A program made the position numbers and the translations under genes. This document shows positions 3,084-10,807 of a stretch of DNA of 64,000 nucleotides, piece by piece (within the stretch, counting starts at the first letter, position 1; each line of letters opens with the position of its first letter). This stretch comes from Sulfurimonas denitrificans DSM 1251 (GTDB lineage: Bacteria; Campylobacterota; Campylobacteria; Campylobacterales; Sulfurimonadaceae): assembly GCF_000012965.1 (NCBI RefSeq), contig NC_007575.1, forward strand, positions 620,001 to 684,000. The letters are read 5' to 3'. The notes under the pieces are model-generated. The model was not told the DNA's origin. It worked only from the letters and a program-made list of their open reading frames with translations, and did no database searches.

Positions 3084-4631
3084 TTATCTACTTTCCTCAA
3101 ATAAGACTTTTTTCTTTAAATCAAATAAATCTTTTCTTCTATCTCTTAAGTTTTTCACACTTCCAAATTGGTTTAATTCTCTTAATAAATCTATATCTAC
3201 ATCAGCTATTAGTGTCATTTCACTGTTTGCTATGGCTTCTGCTTTTATCCCATTTGTAGGAAATGCAAAATCACAAGGAGTAAATACTACAGATTGTGCA
3301 AATTGAATATCCATATTGTGAACATTTGGCAAGTTGCCAACACTCCCAGCGATTGCCACATAACACTCATTCTCAATTGCTCTAGCTTGTGAGCAGTGTC
3401 TAACTCTTGAGTATCCATTTTGTGTATCTGTTAAAAAAGGAACAAAAAGTATATCCATTCCATCATCAGCCAATAATCTGCTAAGTTCAGGAAATTCTGA
3501 ATCATAGCAGATAAGAACCCCTATTTTACCGCAGTCGGTATCAAAGGTTTCTATTTTGTTTCCACCCTGCATACCCCATACTCTTACTTCATCTGGAGTT
3601 ACATGTATCTTTTCATATCTCTCAACTGTTCCATCTCTCCTACATAAGTATCCAACGTTGTAGAGATTTCCATCTTTAAGCTCTGGCATACTTCCTGTGA
3701 TAATGTTGATGTTATATGAGATAGAAAATTCAGAAAACTTCTCGACTATACTCTTCGTATGTCCAGCCAACTCTCTAATAGCCGCAGCTTCTGATAGATG
3801 GTTGTTTTCCGCCATCAATGGAGCATTAAAAAATTCTGGAAAAAGAGCAAAATCAGATCTATATCCTGAGACTGCATCAATAAAATACTCTGCTTGTTGC
3901 AGCAACTCGCCTAAATCTTTGTAAGGTCGCATCTGCCACTGAATAAGACCAAGACGAACTATTTTTTTCTTTGTTGCTGCCTTTTTGTTTGGCTTCTCAT
4001 AGTAAATATTATTCCACTCCAGCAAAACAGCAAATTCACCAGAGGCAGCGTCTCCTTGAAGATAACCTTTTATAATTTTAGATGGATGAAAATCATTTGA
4101 GATTTGAAAATTTAAAACTGGGTCATTTATCTCTTTTCTCTTTACTTTTTCTATATACTCTTTTGGAGATAGCTCATGAGAGTACTTATGATAGTTTGGT
4201 ATTCTTCCCCCAAAGGCGATACCTTTTAAGTTTAATCTCTCACACAACTCTTTTCTATAATCATATAATCGTCTCCCAAGTCTTAAACCACGAAACTTTG
4301 GTTTTACAAAAACATCTATCCCATATAGCATGTCTCCATTATCTGAGTGAGAGTTAAAGGTGTAGTTATGCGTTACTTCTCTATAAGTATGTTTATCTGA
4401 GAACTCCTCATAATTTACGATAATAGACAAAGCACAAGCTGCTATTTCACCATCAACTTTGATAACAACTTGCCCCTCATAAAACTTCTCAATCAAAGCT
4501 CTAATCTGATGCTCCTTCCAGTATGATTCAGGCATAGTTTCATAAACTACAACCATAATCTCTTTTAGTTCATCATAATCTTGCATTGTTAAAAATGCCA
4601 ACTCTATATTTTCTACTTCTTGTGTATTCAT
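3084..4631 (-). CDS. GNAT acetyltransferase-carbon-nitrogen hydrolase (nitrilase superfamily) fusion
   Basis: The N-terminal ~190 residues are GNAT-like, with the acetyl-CoA loop region around FRGLRLGRRLYDYR. From about residue 224 a complete nitrilase/amidase domain follows. Its catalytic triad is readable: Glu in FPEFFNAP, Lys in YEKIHVTPDE, Cys in LICYDSEFPE (about residue 373). Such fusions are a known nitrilase-superfamily branch, but the natural substrate is not known to me; an amide or nitrile hydrolysis with acyl transfer is the family expectation. I chose the ATG at 4631 because GGA lies just upstream and the product starts with MNTQEVENIELAF. A longer frame to 4691 would add 20 residues without a ribosome site. 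Confidence 0.88.
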   Translation of the reverse strand: MNTQEVENIELAFLTMQDYDELKEIMVVVYETMPESYWKEHQIRALIEKFYEGQVVIKVDGEIAACALSIIVNYEEFSDKHTYREVTHNYTFNSHSDNGDMLYGIDVFVKPKFRGLRLGRRLYDYRKELCERLNLKGIAFGGRIPNYHKYSHELSPKEYIEKVKRKEINDPVLNFQISNDFHPSKIIKGYLQGDAASGEFAVLLEWNNIYYEKPNKKAATKKKIVRLGLIQWQMRPYKDLGELLQQAEYFIDAVSGYRSDFALFPEFFNAPLMAENNHLSEAAAIRELAGHTKSIVEKFSEFSISYNINIITGSMPELKDGNLYNVGYLCRRDGTVERYEKIHVTPDEVRVWGMQGGNKIETFDTDCGKIGVLICYDSEFPELSRLLADDGMDILFVPFLTDTQNGYSRVRHCSQARAIENECYVAIAGSVGNLPNVHNMDIQFAQSVVFTPCDFAFPTNGIKAEAIANSEMTLIADVDIDLLRELNQFGSVKNLRDRRKDLFDLKKKVLFEESR

Positions 4632-5617: not shown

Positions 5618-8272
5618 TTATACAATTTTTATCTCAAGAAGTCTCTTTTTTATCTTTTCAAATGCTTCTTCATAGTTGTAGTTGCTATCTTCTTTTTTAG
5701 CCATTTTTTCAAATTCAGTGCTATCTTCTTGTACTTCTTCTAACCTAAAATTGCCACTTGAGCCTTTTATGCTGTGTGCTATAAGTACCATTTTTTGGTA
5801 ATCTCTTGTTAAAATCGCTTCTTGCATTTCAGGTATCTGCTTAGACATTTTCTTGATAAATAGTGTAGCAAGCATAAGTAACTCACTCTCACTAAGCATC
5901 AACTCTTGAGTTAGTTTCTGTAAATCAAGCCCTTTTATACTACTATTTTGAACTGCTGTTTTTTTATTTAAAACAACTGATTTTGAAGATCTTAGATAGT
6001 TTGAAAAAACTCTCTCTAACTCTTTAATAACTATAGGTTTACCCAAAAATGAGTCATATCCGCTCGACAAACCTCTCTCTTTAGCGCCTTTTATTACATT
6101 TGCAGTAAGTGCTGAAATTGGTGTATGTCTTAACTTATTCTCATCTTCATAAGCTAAAATCGCTTTTATTGCCTCATTTCCATCCATAATTGGCATCTGC
6201 TCATCCATTAAAATCAAATCATAGTTATTTGCTTTATAAAGATTAAATGCTTCTAGCCCATTTGCCGCCAAATCGTAAGTCAGTCCATATTTTATAAGTA
6301 AAATTTTAATAAGTTCTTGATTTGCTTCATTGTCTTCTGCTATTAAAACATGCCCTCTAAACTTTTTCCCTTTCTCTTTTCTATGTTGAGGAGTTTCATC
6401 TGGATAGATTAACTCATCAAAAGCTGTTTTTATTTTTGAACAATAAAGAGGAAAACATATTGTCGATACATGCGGGTATGTCTCATATATATCGCTTGGT
6501 CTATTTGTTAAGGCGATATACTTCTTGTTGGAGTTTGCAATTTTGTCTTTAAACTCTTTATCTACATCCTCTTCCAAAAATATTACCAAATCATGCTCAC
6601 ATTGAGTATTATCTACAACTTCTATATCCATTCCAAAAATATTTGAGTATTGTAAAAATGACGCTGATCTGTAATCATGTTTCATATTTTTTGCATAAAA
6701 AACTTTCTTATATTTTTTTATCTCTTCTAAATCATTAAATATTTGACAAGAGTTGTCATGAATCTCAACTGGAAGCTGAACCCAAAATGTGCTTCCTTGC
6801 CCAAGTTCAGACACTACATGTACACTTCCATTCATATGCTTAGACAACTGATTGCAGATGGATAGTCCAAGACCTGTTCCAACCATATGCTCAACTTCAG
6901 CGCCTCCTGCTTGAGTAAAAGCAGTAAAAATATTTGAAATATCGCCTGCGGCTATTCCAATTCCATTATCTTGAACACTTACTCTAAGTGTTCTATTCTT
7001 ACAGGTTGCCTCTACATGTATATGTCCGCCAACTCTTGTAAACTTAATTGCATTACTCAAAAAATTTGATAATATCTGTTTTATTCTAAGCGAGTCTGCA
7101 TATAACTCTTTTGGTATTACTGGGTCTATAAAAGATGTGATTGTTATCTCTTTTAAGTTAGCAGAAGCAACAAAAAGTTCTAATGTATGACTAATCTCGT
7201 TATGTATTGAGAAAATTCTAGGTTCGATTGTAAACTCACCACTTCTTAATTTTGAAAAATCCAAAATATCGTTGATGATACTCAAGAGGTTCTCTCCACT
7301 ATTTAAAATAATTTCTAGATATTTTCTATGCTGTTTTGAGAGATCTTGATCAATTAAAAGATTTACAAATCCCAAAATCGCATTTAGTGGAGTTCTTATC
7401 TCATGCGACATATTGGATAAAAAATACTCTTTTGCTTGCGAAGCTTTTTGTGCTTCAAGTCTCGCATCTATAAGAGTAGTAACATCATTTGCTATAGAGA
7501 TATATTCTGTTGTATTATCATATGGATCAGTGATTTTAACAATAGTTACATCAATATAAAAGTAATCTCCATTTTTTTTATTATTTTTTATAGTGCCTCT
7601 AAAAATCCCCATATTTTCAAGCTGAAACCATAAATCTTTAAAATACTCATCTGGCATATCTTGATGTTTTACAATACTATGATAACTGCCAATTAAACTC
7701 TCTGCGCTATATCCGCTTATCTTTACATATTTATCATTTACGTAAGTTATCTTTCCATTTTTGTCTGTCTTGGAGATAATTGCACTCTCATCAAGTGCTT
7801 TTTGATACTCGCTAAGAAGCTTTACATGTCTATCTATCTCTTGCTCTTTTTTATAGATAGTGTCTGTATAATATTTCAAAATTCCTTGAAAATTTTGATC
7901 GAACATAAAAGATATCTCTTCAAAAATATTTTTGGAGTTAATATTTGCGTCATAAGTAAAGTCAATCATTGAGCGGCGGAAATGGCTGCAAAGGTCAAAA
8001 AGCTCTTCGGCCTTTATCTCTTTATCTTTTAAATATATGATAAATTCCCTCATAATAGGGCAATCCCCTATATGCACAGTACCAGCTACCACATCCATAA
8101 AGTAGTCAAAAACACCATTTGCATAATTATTTACAAATTTTTTTGTATCAATGTCATGAAGGGTAAGTATCCGCTGAGGAGAGTCATAAGATATCCACTG
8201 TTTTAAAATAATATCTTTTGACTCTTTTAAAATATCTAAATTTTTTACTAGATTTGGTATCTTTTTTTCCAT
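5618..8272 (-). CDS. Hybrid histidine kinase: N-terminal sensor, PAS, HisKA/HATPase, degenerate receiver, receiver, Hpt
   Basis: This 884-residue protein has no clear membrane segment and is probably cytoplasmic. The order is an all-helical N-terminal region (1-155), PAS (157-275), dimerisation domain with H290 in SHEIRTPL, ATPase domain with N box near 405-412 and GTGLGLSIC near 466-473, a receiver-sized stretch at about 520-625 without a clear phospho-acceptor, a true receiver with D690 in LILMDEQMP, and an Hpt domain with H833 in IAHSIKGSSGN. It therefore holds a full His-Asp-His relay. The terminal partner is likely a separate receiver, perhaps the convergent regulator at 4857-5606. Confidence 0.92.
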   Translation of the reverse strand: MEKKIPNLVKNLDILKESKDIILKQWISYDSPQRILTLHDIDTKKFVNNYANGVFDYFMDVVAGTVHIGDCPIMREFIIYLKDKEIKAEELFDLCSHFRRSMIDFTYDANINSKNIFEEISFMFDQNFQGILKYYTDTIYKKEQEIDRHVKLLSEYQKALDESAIISKTDKNGKITYVNDKYVKISGYSAESLIGSYHSIVKHQDMPDEYFKDLWFQLENMGIFRGTIKNNKKNGDYFYIDVTIVKITDPYDNTTEYISIANDVTTLIDARLEAQKASQAKEYFLSNMSHEIRTPLNAILGFVNLLIDQDLSKQHRKYLEIILNSGENLLSIINDILDFSKLRSGEFTIEPRIFSIHNEISHTLELFVASANLKEITITSFIDPVIPKELYADSLRIKQILSNFLSNAIKFTRVGGHIHVEATCKNRTLRVSVQDNGIGIAAGDISNIFTAFTQAGGAEVEHMVGTGLGLSICNQLSKHMNGSVHVVSELGQGSTFWVQLPVEIHDNSCQIFNDLEEIKKYKKVFYAKNMKHDYRSASFLQYSNIFGMDIEVVDNTQCEHDLVIFLEEDVDKEFKDKIANSNKKYIALTNRPSDIYETYPHVSTICFPLYCSKIKTAFDELIYPDETPQHRKEKGKKFRGHVLIAEDNEANQELIKILLIKYGLTYDLAANGLEAFNLYKANNYDLILMDEQMPIMDGNEAIKAILAYEDENKLRHTPISALTANVIKGAKERGLSSGYDSFLGKPIVIKELERVFSNYLRSSKSVVLNKKTAVQNSSIKGLDLQKLTQELMLSESELLMLATLFIKKMSKQIPEMQEAILTRDYQKMVLIAHSIKGSSGNFRLEEVQEDSTEFEKMAKKEDSNYNYEEAFEKIKKRLLEIKIV

Positions 8273-8287
8273 AATTTATAAAATCTA

Positions 8288-9082
8288 CTACATTATAAAA
8301 TATGATAACAGTGTAATGAGTGAGAGCTTTATCAATGAAATTACTGCCGTACCTATAATATTTCCAATCTGGCAACTTGTACATGAAGTAAATCGTTTTC
8401 CTTCATACTGCGCATAAAAAAAGTAAACTATATTTAATCCAAACGCACTAAGAGCTAAATAACCTTGATAGCTCCACAACTCTTTATCTACAAAGAGTGA
8501 TGATAAGAGCAATACAACCATTACAATCATTATTATATTTATTACTTTAATAATATAGTCTCTTTTAAATGTTGTAGGACAAACTTCAGAGATGGCAAGA
8601 TCACTTCCAAACTCTAGTTTTTTTTGAAAGAGCTTTTTTTCTACTTTGTTTAGTTTATTTAAAAAAGTTGAACCAAAAGTATAATCAACCTTTCTTTGGA
8701 GCAAAATACTAAAGGCTCCATCTGCTTTTAGCGAGTGTTGCTGTAATTCTCTATCTTGATAGACTAAAGAGATAGTTTCATATCTCGTTACCTCTGCACT
8801 TAAATTTGGAAAATAAGCAGTTTTTTCAATAGTTGTAACTCTGCCATGAGGGTTTATAATCCTTGGATTTATAAGCTCTAAAAATTCTCCGCCATCTTGT
8901 GCAACTACAACTATGTTGAAATAACTTCCAATCTGAAAAGCTGCTAAAGCTTCTAGTGAATTGGCTTTTATCGTATCTTTTAAGTCCTCAATAAGAGATT
9001 CTATCTCCTCATTAAAAACTCTGACATCTGTTGCATATTGTACGCTTGGCGGGGTTGGGTAGGTAACTATCTCTTTAATCAT
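8288..9082 (-). CDS. Membrane-anchored peptide deformylase-like protein lacking the metal ligands
   Basis: The first ~165 residues align by eye with peptide deformylase: MIKEIVTYP start, then LAAFQIGSYFNIVVV where the enzyme has GLAAxQVG, then INPRIINP. The Cys motif (EGCLS) is replaced by KTAYFPNLS and the HExxH motif by LQRKVDYTFG, so all three metal ligands are gone and deformylase activity is not expected. About 100 residues follow with three or four membrane helices and a CTSCQIGN loop. I start at 9082 because deformylases begin MI(K/R)EI and GAGAG precedes the ATG; a frame reaching 9139 adds 19 unrelated residues. Role unknown, perhaps binding formylated peptides at the membrane. Confidence 0.75.
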   Translation of the reverse strand: MIKEIVTYPTPPSVQYATDVRVFNEEIESLIEDLKDTIKANSLEALAAFQIGSYFNIVVVAQDGGEFLELINPRIINPHGRVTTIEKTAYFPNLSAEVTRYETISLVYQDRELQQHSLKADGAFSILLQRKVDYTFGSTFLNKLNKVEKKLFQKKLEFGSDLAISEVCPTTFKRDYIIKVINIIMIVMVVLLLSSLFVDKELWSYQGYLALSAFGLNIVYFFYAQYEGKRFTSCTSCQIGNIIGTAVISLIKLSLITLLSYFIM

Positions 9083-9145
9083 CACTCTCTCTATTTTTTG
9101 GAATTTAGCAAAGATTTCAACATGTGAAATCTTTGCCATTTAAAT

Positions 9146-9310
9146 TTAGTGGCTTTTTCTTACCACTACAAGCATTTTTATATTGATTACAATAAATCTT
9201 ATAAACTGCCAAATCTTACATGTTCTTAGCTTGATAGCAAAAGGTCCAGGTGTCATTGTAGTAAAATTGTTTCCGTAAGCTTTTATGTTGTGTTCTGGTT
9301 TTTTTTCCAT
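9146..9310 (-). CDS. Small 54-residue protein directly downstream of sqr
   Basis: An ATG at 9310 is preceded by AAGGAAAA at good spacing and opens a frame of 54 codons ending in TAA at 9146. The product starts MEKKPEHNIKAYGNNF, contains TMTPGPFAIKLRTCK, and ends in a hydrophobic helix (about residues 36-51) followed by RKSH. It sits 27 bases behind the sqr stop, in the same direction. The clear ribosome site, location and single helix support a real small membrane-associated gene, perhaps an accessory of the quinone reductase. No family is recognised. Confidence 0.65.
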   Translation of the reverse strand: MEKKPEHNIKAYGNNFTTMTPGPFAIKLRTCKIWQFIRFIVINIKMLVVVRKSH

Positions 9311-9337: not shown

Positions 9338-10807
9338 TTATTCTGGAATTAGCGTCCAGCCAGCTTTTAGCTTAGCTTTCCATAGGAATAGATGGTGAAG
9401 GATATGTTTAATCCAGTGACCTGCAAGACCAATTTCACCAAAAGTATAATCCGTATCACGACCAGTTCCTGGATACTTATCAAAATCTGGAATAACAGGA
9501 TAAATTGTCATGGCAGCAGCAGTCCCAGTAAATACACCTTTACCAGCACTAGCAACACAAGCCGCTCCCATGTGAGCCATTGAAGCCTCATGTAGAGGAG
9601 CATTTTCACCTTTTAAGATTCTATCGCAAATACTGTGTGCAACAGCTTTTCCAATAATTCCTGATGGCATACCAGTACGTGGAGGCGTAGGATTGATTGG
9701 CGTTCCATTTGGAGAACTCATTGGTTTAGAAATTGGATGTGGAGGTGCAAATGCAATACCACAAGCAAACAGATTACCGTATGTAGGGTTTTGGTAAGTT
9801 GATGGCCAGTCACTTGCCTTCCAGTTTTCATAAGCACCAGCAGAGTAGTTTGCATCTACTTTCATAAAGCCATTTGGAGCAAAAACAGTTGATGTAATGT
9901 CTGAGCCATCTTTTGCAAATGCTTTTAAGCCAACACCTGCAAAAGGAGGAATTAGCATAGAGAAGTCAAACTCCTCTTCACCCATTGAGCCATCAAGTAG
10001 TTCATAATGAACCTTACCTTTTTCAACTTTGTTTACATGTGCACCGATAATCCAATCTACATTTCTCTCAGTAAAGAGTGATTCTGCAAAGATTTTTGAA
10101 CTAACAGCAAATCCCATGCTCTTCATATGTAATCCGCCAACTCCAAAGTCGCCTAAGAAAGACTCATTTGAAATCCACTTTACATCAGCCATATCACGAA
10201 CACCAGCTTTTTTAAGCTCATGCTCAATGTTAAAGATATACTCAAATGCAGCGCCTTGACATGTACATAAACCATGTCCTGTTCCTATTAGAAACTTTTG
10301 ACGCTCACCTTTTTTCATCTTTTGGATTGTTTTTTGAAACTCCTCATTGGCGTGAGAAGCATGGTCTGCAGTACAAACAGAAACAGTAAACTCGCCAAGT
10401 TCAGAACCCTCTCCAAGCCCTGGAGTCGCACCAAAGTTTAATTTAGGTCCTGTTGCATTGATTAGGTAATCATACTCTATGTTCTCTGTTTTGCCTTCAT
10501 TGCCCTTAGATGTAAATTCTATAGTTACAAAAGGTTTACCACTTGACTCAGAGCCCTCTGGATTAATTGAGAGCGCTTTTGCTTGTTTAAAATTAATACC
10601 AGCTTTTGAATATACAGGAGCTAAGTCAAAGGTAACATCCTCTTTACTCATCTCACCAACACCAACCCAAATGTTTGATGGAATCCAATTCCATTTTGAG
10701 TTTGGAGTAACAACAACTACTTCGTGAGCCGAACCAAGCCATTTTGCCGCAAATGTTGCAGCTGTATGACCAGAGACTCCTCCACCAAGAACAACTAATC
10801 TTGCCAT
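9338..10807 (-). CDS. sqr: Sulfide:quinone oxidoreductase family flavoprotein
   Basis: The enzyme family oxidises sulfide to polysulfide/sulfur and passes electrons to the quinone pool at the membrane. The FAD-binding start VVLGGGVSGHTAA is at about residues 5-17. Candidate redox cysteines are C145 (VSVCTADHA), C181 and C183 (GLCTCQGAAFE) and C349 (NLFACGIAF), giving the multiple Cys pattern of sqr-type reductases. The C-terminal 30 residues are amphipathic (HWIKHILHHLFLWK), suited to membrane attachment. With 489 residues it is longer than the classical type, so it is one of the more divergent sqr classes; the exact type is not certain. AAGGATG precedes the ATG. Confidence 0.85.
   Translation of the reverse strand: MARLVVLGGGVSGHTAATFAAKWLGSAHEVVVVTPNSKWNWIPSNIWVGVGEMSKEDVTFDLAPVYSKAGINFKQAKALSINPEGSESSGKPFVTIEFTSKGNEGKTENIEYDYLINATGPKLNFGATPGLGEGSELGEFTVSVCTADHASHANEEFQKTIQKMKKGERQKFLIGTGHGLCTCQGAAFEYIFNIEHELKKAGVRDMADVKWISNESFLGDFGVGGLHMKSMGFAVSSKIFAESLFTERNVDWIIGAHVNKVEKGKVHYELLDGSMGEEEFDFSMLIPPFAGVGLKAFAKDGSDITSTVFAPNGFMKVDANYSAGAYENWKASDWPSTYQNPTYGNLFACGIAFAPPHPISKPMSSPNGTPINPTPPRTGMPSGIIGKAVAHSICDRILKGENAPLHEASMAHMGAACVASAGKGVFTGTAAAMTIYPVIPDFDKYPGTGRDTDYTFGEIGLAGHWIKHILHHLFLWKAKLKAGWTLIPE

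Follow-up and report, generated by a model that had tools for sequence, protein, structure and literature searches.

Among the peptide deformylases (PDFs), type 3 comprises archaeal and protist proteins and the accessory copies of S. aureus and S. pneumoniae, whose motifs are altered and which are described, in the available part of PMC12690207, as weak or inactive, with some active members. The sulfide:quinone oxidoreductases (SQRs) of Sulfurimonas denitrificans are of types II, III and IV, type I being absent from Sulfurimonas (available parts of PMC4584964 and PMC7952632); types I and IV form one clade (available part of PMC4584964), type IV is conserved in all sequenced Sulfurimonas, and the roles of the different types are still regarded as enigmatic (available parts of PMC4584964 and PMC7952632). 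In these same parts of PMC4584964 and PMC7952632 the type IV SQR is handled as a single gene and partner proteins are unmentioned, whereas the SQR considered here, probably of this type, lies in a gene cassette together with a protein of 54 residues and a deformylase relative with predicted membrane helices, hereafter the pseudo-deformylase. An SQR cassette containing such a protein was not found in the PMC literature, a scope outside which most subscription papers lie.

The cassette was studied in a window of 64,000 nucleotides, the whole stretch of DNA that was analysed (S. denitrificans DSM 1251, contig NC_007575.1, positions 620,001 to 684,000), and coordinates refer to this window unless another locus or record is named. 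The pseudo-deformylase is encoded on the minus strand at 8288..9082 (264 residues and a stop codon), an ORF for which 140 distinct homologues were collected. A start at 9139, 19 codons upstream, is an alternative; the start at 9082 is preceded by GAGAGAG and fits the homologues. Purifying selection acts on the deformylase part, with a dN/dS of 0.13 at a dS of 0.57, a figure which is that of the pair with locus L033, synonymous sites being near or beyond saturation in the four other pairs tried. Between the 54-residue small ORF and the pseudo-deformylase there is an inverted repeat (9108-9136; 12 pairs, 5-base loop), perhaps an mRNA stability hairpin. Signals for an operon were uninformative, since six promoter-like sites were found against 10.3 expected by chance.

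Residues 1-160 (8603..9082, minus strand) make up the deformylase-fold domain. The Pfam profile PF01327 (Pep_deformylase) matched residues 2-149 over profile positions 1-155 of 156, at E 7.4e-33 and 113.8 bits, and a score of this size, set against the cut-off of 22.8, excludes a chance match. A search of PDB sequences returned 59 matches at E up to 10, and all of those at E < 0.1 were named deformylases except chain 3uwa, which is a RIIA-RIIB membrane-associated protein in one listing and a probable phage deformylase in another. The AlphaFold model, obtained with 45 homologues, had a mean pLDDT of 83.5 and a pTM of 0.55, residues 1-16 being poor; its best VIA-align row was the Def of H. pylori (2ew5), with Z 19.2 and rmsd 2.6 over 152 residues lying within residues 2-159, and its best Foldseek row was 1icj (E 2.4e-12). 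As judged from the profile match and the predicted fold, the product of the ORF is a true peptide-deformylase homologue. An ordinary def is present elsewhere in the genome as the single other deformylase match, with EGCLS and QHEIDH intact.

The alignment with E. coli Def and with the genome's own Def showed that the former motif II (residues 86-90, 8813..8827, minus strand) reads EKTAY for EGCLS and the former motif III (residues 129-134, 8681..8698, minus strand) reads QRKVDY for QHExDH, with the exchanges Cys to Thr88, His to Arg130, Glu to Lys131 and His to Tyr134. The first-pass annotation had taken the protein for a deformylase relative with all three metal ligands replaced, which these residues and the profile match bear out; it had also given both motifs as replaced, and here the Glu of EGCLS has to be excepted, as it is kept (Glu86, 140/140 homologues). 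Motif I is LEALAAFQ, compared to GIGLAATQ in E. coli Def, so that both glycines are gone and Gln50 is kept. Among the first 89 distinct homologues Thr88, Arg130, Lys131 and Tyr134 were all invariant. With more distant groups added, the family alignment held 140 distinct sequences from 172 matches, each of which was required to reach model position 230, so that module-less forms are left out by construction. In this set position 88 is Thr in 120, Ser in 10 and Asp in 10 members (Cys 0/140); position 130 is Arg in 131, Gln in 6 and His in 3; position 131 is Lys in 129, Gln in 8, Met in 2 and Thr in 1 (Glu 0/140); and position 134 is Tyr in 121, Met in 10, Phe in 7 and Ile and Leu in 1 each (His 0/140). 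Since Cys at 88 and His at 134 are found in no member and His at 130 in 3, any member keeps at most one of the three ligands. The glycines of motif I are also mostly lost, position 43 being Leu in 123/140 and position 45 Ala in 83 and Gly in 53. By these residue counts, the metal ligands and the catalytic Glu are gone throughout the pseudo-deformylase family.

Substitute metal ligands within residues 1-160 were considered and rejected, conserved His or Cys columns being absent among the 140 homologues: the best His columns were position 116 (55/140) and one near position 78 (28/140), and this part of the protein is free of Cys in 100/140. The pocket region has kept other residues, namely Gln50 in 134 members and Glu86, Arg100 and Asp133 in all 140, and the conservation of columns 86, 129, 133 and 137 is 99-100%. 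The invariance of Glu86, Arg100 and Asp133 indicates a pocket region that is maintained rather than decaying. The profile search, the structure prediction and the ordinary def in the genome, all of them answering checks named by the first-pass annotation, agree, together with the replaced residues of motifs II and III, with its proposal of a non-catalytic deformylase fold at the membrane, the membrane part by prediction; the relation to deformylase is clear.

Compared to the type 1 PDFs, such as those of E. coli and H. pylori, the pseudo-deformylase is alike in its PF01327 match and predicted fold (28% identity with E. coli Def) and differs in the replaced metal ligands and catalytic Glu, the lost glycines of motif I and an added membrane module. 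With the type 3 PDFs, as they are presented in the available part of PMC12690207, it shares the condition of a deformylase relative with changed motifs; there, substitutions are given for motifs I and II, whereas in the pseudo-deformylase motif III is lost too, a comparison that is by description only. The CxxC membrane module and the SQR neighbourhood are additions relative to type 3 as described in that part of the source. By their titles, the PDB entries 4al2 and 4az4 contain E. coli deformylase solved with hydrosulfide; sulfide may thus bind the very site that the pseudo-deformylase has lost, possibly a coincidence.

The gene upstream, at 9338..10807 on the minus strand, encodes an SQR of 489 residues, which matched the SQR of Aquifex aeolicus (3hyv) by phmmer at E 7e-42. 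Its residues C145, C183 and C417, which we take to be the catalytic cysteines of the active site, align with cysteines of 3hyv and are present in 90/90 SQR rows, the window's own being counted twice; with the three cysteines intact, the SQR looks active. A search of the genome for a second copy of this SQR gave none at E up to 1e-5. The likeness to 3hyv, the published lists of SQR types and the single copy led to an assignment by elimination, and on this comparison the SQR is probably type IV. Han and Perner have reportedly studied three SQRs of S. denitrificans.

Between the SQR and the pseudo-deformylase lies the small ORF (9146..9310, minus strand), whose product of 54 residues ends in KSH. 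The window's copy gave zero Pfam or NCBIfam matches and no match to PDB sequences; when 40 members were searched against Pfam, two had one match each, the best at E 0.015. All 82 distinct copies share Pro, Arg, Gln, Arg-Phe, Asn and Lys-Met, and 12 residues are invariant among 40 aligned copies. The search of the gaps for small ORFs demanded the letters KSH, which are there partly by selection; among 20 further loci found with a profile, KSH is missing in L186, L187, L189 and L193. A helix is predicted at residues 32-53, the model being a modest one (mean pLDDT 67.3). The idea that the small ORF duplicates the C-terminal tail of the SQR was rejected, as hhalign gave no match.

The conservation of this arrangement was followed in 119 homologues, a non-random sample made up of the 80 closest relatives of the window protein, 40 hand-picked across groups and the window itself, L149 and L165 of these 121 stretches having dropped out at gene calling; genes were called as longest ORFs, without a trained gene finder. 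In 87 of the 119 the SQR precedes the pseudo-deformylase gene on the same strand. It is then the first or second upstream gene call; where it is the second, the intervening call is usually a short overlapping ORF. The SQR is not upstream in 32, or in 26 if 6 homologues without an upstream gene in the stretch are excluded. In 86 of the 87 cases a small ORF with KSH lies in the gap between SQR and pseudo-deformylase, and in the 87th (L172, genome G062) the small ORF was recovered next to the gene by profile search. The outer neighbours differ: the window's group has pepN on the upstream side and a histidine kinase on the downstream side, another group has the ribosomal pair rplM-rpsI, and a third has a polyphosphate kinase-like gene with a carbonic-anhydrase-like gene (by eye).

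A tree was obtained by a quick method, the 93 rows whose gene context was known having been reduced to 75 at 80% identity, with one long branch (L162) among them. A branch with an SH-aLRT of 100 separates the pseudo-deformylases from 15 canonical Campylobacterota PDFs. The SQR is adjacent both on the branch that splits first (group f8) and on most of the remaining ones, at least four changes being needed on the tree. A sub-clade of Sulfurimonas (L080-L111) is mostly away from the SQR, often beside genes that by eye are AhpD-like, DsrE-like and MerR-like.

A survey of the distribution across Campylobacterota, which the first-pass annotation had also suggested, found the membrane module in 80 of 397 genomes, in six of the family-level groups sampled (f1, f4, f7, f8, f9 and f11). 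The small ORF was found in 111 genomes, 31 of which lack the module; both occur together in 80, and no genome has the module without the small ORF. The Fisher value for module and small ORF, 1e-58, is inflated by relatedness, and it is taken to show no more than that one presence is nested in the other. For seven or eight of the 111 small-ORF genomes the match is partial or weak (E 1e-9 to 1e-12, in most cases over model positions 10-46), and the absences are soft, because in many genomes only part of the first candidates was scored, for example 24(11). The wider scan of genome contigs used the single window protein as query and was thereby limited to close relatives; it gave 219 stretches and 90 relatives, of which 80 were kept. 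All 20 further loci have the SQR directly upstream of the small ORF; 17 of them are from module-free genomes, the others being L181 and the loci L192 and L193, whose genomes carry the module elsewhere. Since the small ORF extends beyond the genomes with the module and always stands behind the SQR in these loci, SQR and small ORF form a wider pair, and the pseudo-deformylase is a third part added to it. The locus L193 (genome G218) is a second, divergent SQR-small ORF pair, followed by a gene start that by eye resembles a membrane cytochrome b.

Records outside these genomes were also searched. A viral origin was rejected, as none of 28 pattern matches in viral contigs (query A1) was a relative by tblastn. 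Matches were present in 87 plasmid records, of which only NZ_CP087125.1 of Sulfurovum mangrovi matched over at least 80% of the protein. In that record the stretch 120194-121009 (L195) is annotated as two 'peptide deformylase' genes and is one piece in the tblastn match; its small ORF is annotated as 'hypothetical' and its SQR as 'FAD-dependent oxidoreductase'.

The part that follows the deformylase domain is the membrane module. Helix 1 (residues 174-195, 8498..8563) and helix 3 (residues 239-263, 8294..8368) are membrane helices by both model and hydropathy, and helix 2 (residues 203-230, 8393..8476), found in the model, has a Kyte-Doolittle mean below 1.6 and is a probable membrane helix, all three on the minus strand. 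The first-pass annotation had counted three or four helices and a CTSC loop; the loop stands, and of the helices two are clear and a third is likely. CTSC (residues 234-237, 8372..8383, minus strand) lies in a loop predicted to be cytosolic from charge counts. Both of its cysteines, C234 and C237, are present in 140/140 homologues, and residues 231-241 are the most conserved block of the protein (mean 0.80, compared to 0.63 for residues 1-160). A further cysteine, Cys168 (8579..8581, minus strand), lies just N-terminal of helix 1 and is found in 138/140 homologues. It is missing in the other two and in locus L181, and confidence in the model is low around it (mean pLDDT 53 for residues 161-170); a three-cysteine site composed of CxxC and Cys168 is unproven.

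The excess of Lys and Arg in the CxxC loop, 2.02 per member against 0.56 in the other loop, favours a topology with both the deformylase domain and CxxC on the cytosolic side. Against this, residues 160-173 before helix 1 are net acidic (acid 1.68, base 0.88), and helix 2 is moderately hydrophobic, so that CxxC would be outside if this helix fails to cross. An SQR of Nautilia is given in the available part of PMC10092268 as predicted cytoplasmic and away from other known sulfur genes. A cytosolic CxxC side would fit that SQR, possibly a different gene, as described in this part of PMC10092268.

A search of PDB sequences for a known fold of the module gave one match, at E 0.9. The small Cys-rich proteins of the FeoB_associated family (PF12669) have a membrane helix and, after it, a Cys-rich tail, and 13 of 41 module members matched this family at E up to 0.1, the best at 1.2e-4. 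For the window's own module PF12669 was not listed at E up to 0.1, the sole match being DUF5684 at 0.023. The likeness to PF12669 is a lead rather than a relation and may reflect composition alone.

From the gene order and the residues conserved, it is probable that the pseudo-deformylase is a partner of the SQR. With the case slightly better than even, we propose that it is a non-catalytic pseudo-enzyme serving, together with the 54-residue protein, as a dedicated membrane partner of the adjacent SQR, with CxxC, rather than the former active site, as the working part. By gene order the pseudo-deformylase belongs to the SQR cassette, and it would belong to it by function as well; neither gene order nor co-occurrence amounts to a physical interaction. 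The membrane helices would keep the deformylase domain at the cytosolic face, next to the membrane-bound SQR, where the deformylase fold could offer a docking surface for the SQR or the small protein. CxxC, perhaps with Cys168, would be the working site, which is the least sure step; its most likely role would be to take sulfane sulfur from the SQR product or to sense it, and metal binding seems less likely. That the cysteines accept or sense sulfane sulfur is put forward tentatively and is more doubtful than the partnership. It is tempting to speculate further that the SQR oxidizes sulfide through a membrane complex of three parts, in which the flavoprotein and a helical subunit of 54 residues would be joined by a dead deformylase passing sulfane sulfur inward by its cytosolic cysteines, an arrangement we consider improbable. 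Because SQR and small ORF are found without the module in 31 of 111 genomes, the pseudo-deformylase is dispensable for their task.

The conserved pocket also allows the pseudo-deformylase to be regarded as a biogenesis factor outside the working enzyme, which at the membrane would receive the nascent or new SQR, or else the small protein, and make use of the old peptide cleft and of the ribosome-facing C-terminal helix of deformylases. The deformylase fold with its peptide cleft, the retention of Gln50, Glu86 and Arg100 and the predicted membrane attachment are in keeping with this role; the loss of most motif I glycines is not. At 4166-4459 of locus L181 (genome G351) there is a membrane module of 98 residues with CTGC and without the deformylase domain, matching the profile at E 6e-8 / 1.0e-7; the order there is SQR, small ORF and then the module ORF, which opens right after the stop codon of the small ORF. 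The CxxC module thus stays with the SQR in the absence of the deformylase domain, which favours the proposed partnership and speaks against a biogenesis role. The 31 genomes with the small ORF and no module also speak against that role, the SQR being present in all 17 of them that were looked at. This role is therefore rather unlikely. The binding of formyl-Met peptides or nascent chains, which had been suggested in the first-pass annotation, received nothing in its support. That annotation had overlooked the neighbourhood with SQR and small ORF, the strong constraint on the CxxC loop and the module of L181 that lacks the domain.

The next gene downstream, at 5618..8272 on the minus strand, encodes a hybrid histidine kinase, which in the window starts 15 bases after the pseudo-deformylase. 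The invariant CxxC might then be a switch in a sulfide or redox sensor that reports the output of the SQR to this kinase or to the SQR itself, and in 53 of 119 homologues a member of the kinase cluster follows as the next same-strand gene call. Outside one part of the family, however, the cassette is without the kinase while SQR and small ORF stay, and the order SQR-small ORF-kinase is also met with no pseudo-deformylase between (L178, L179 and L192, the genome of L192 having a module gene about 7 kb away). As a gene retained solely in part of the family, the kinase lies outside the core and was rejected as a core partner; the sensor is a distinctly unlikely reading. The weakest of the alternatives, that the protein is still a deformylase or another amide hydrolase acting through replacement ligands or metal-free, could appeal to the conserved pocket columns and to those type 3 PDFs that are active with altered motifs (available part of PMC12690207), but with residues 1-160 devoid of conserved Cys and His, the catalytic Glu absent from all 140 homologues and a canonical def in the genome, residual enzyme activity appears very unlikely.

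The pseudo-deformylase shows the fold of an essential bacterial enzyme stripped of its chemistry and, on the preferred reading as a partner of the SQR, reused at the membrane. The cassette also places a pair of undescribed proteins beside an SQR reported in all sequenced Sulfurimonas in the available parts of PMC4584964 and PMC7952632. Among proteins annotated as 'peptide deformylase', and hence among the accessory deformylases that are counted, there can be one that lacks the catalytic metal site, and the pseudo-deformylase ought not to be classed under that name. What makes the protein of interest is the SQR cassette.
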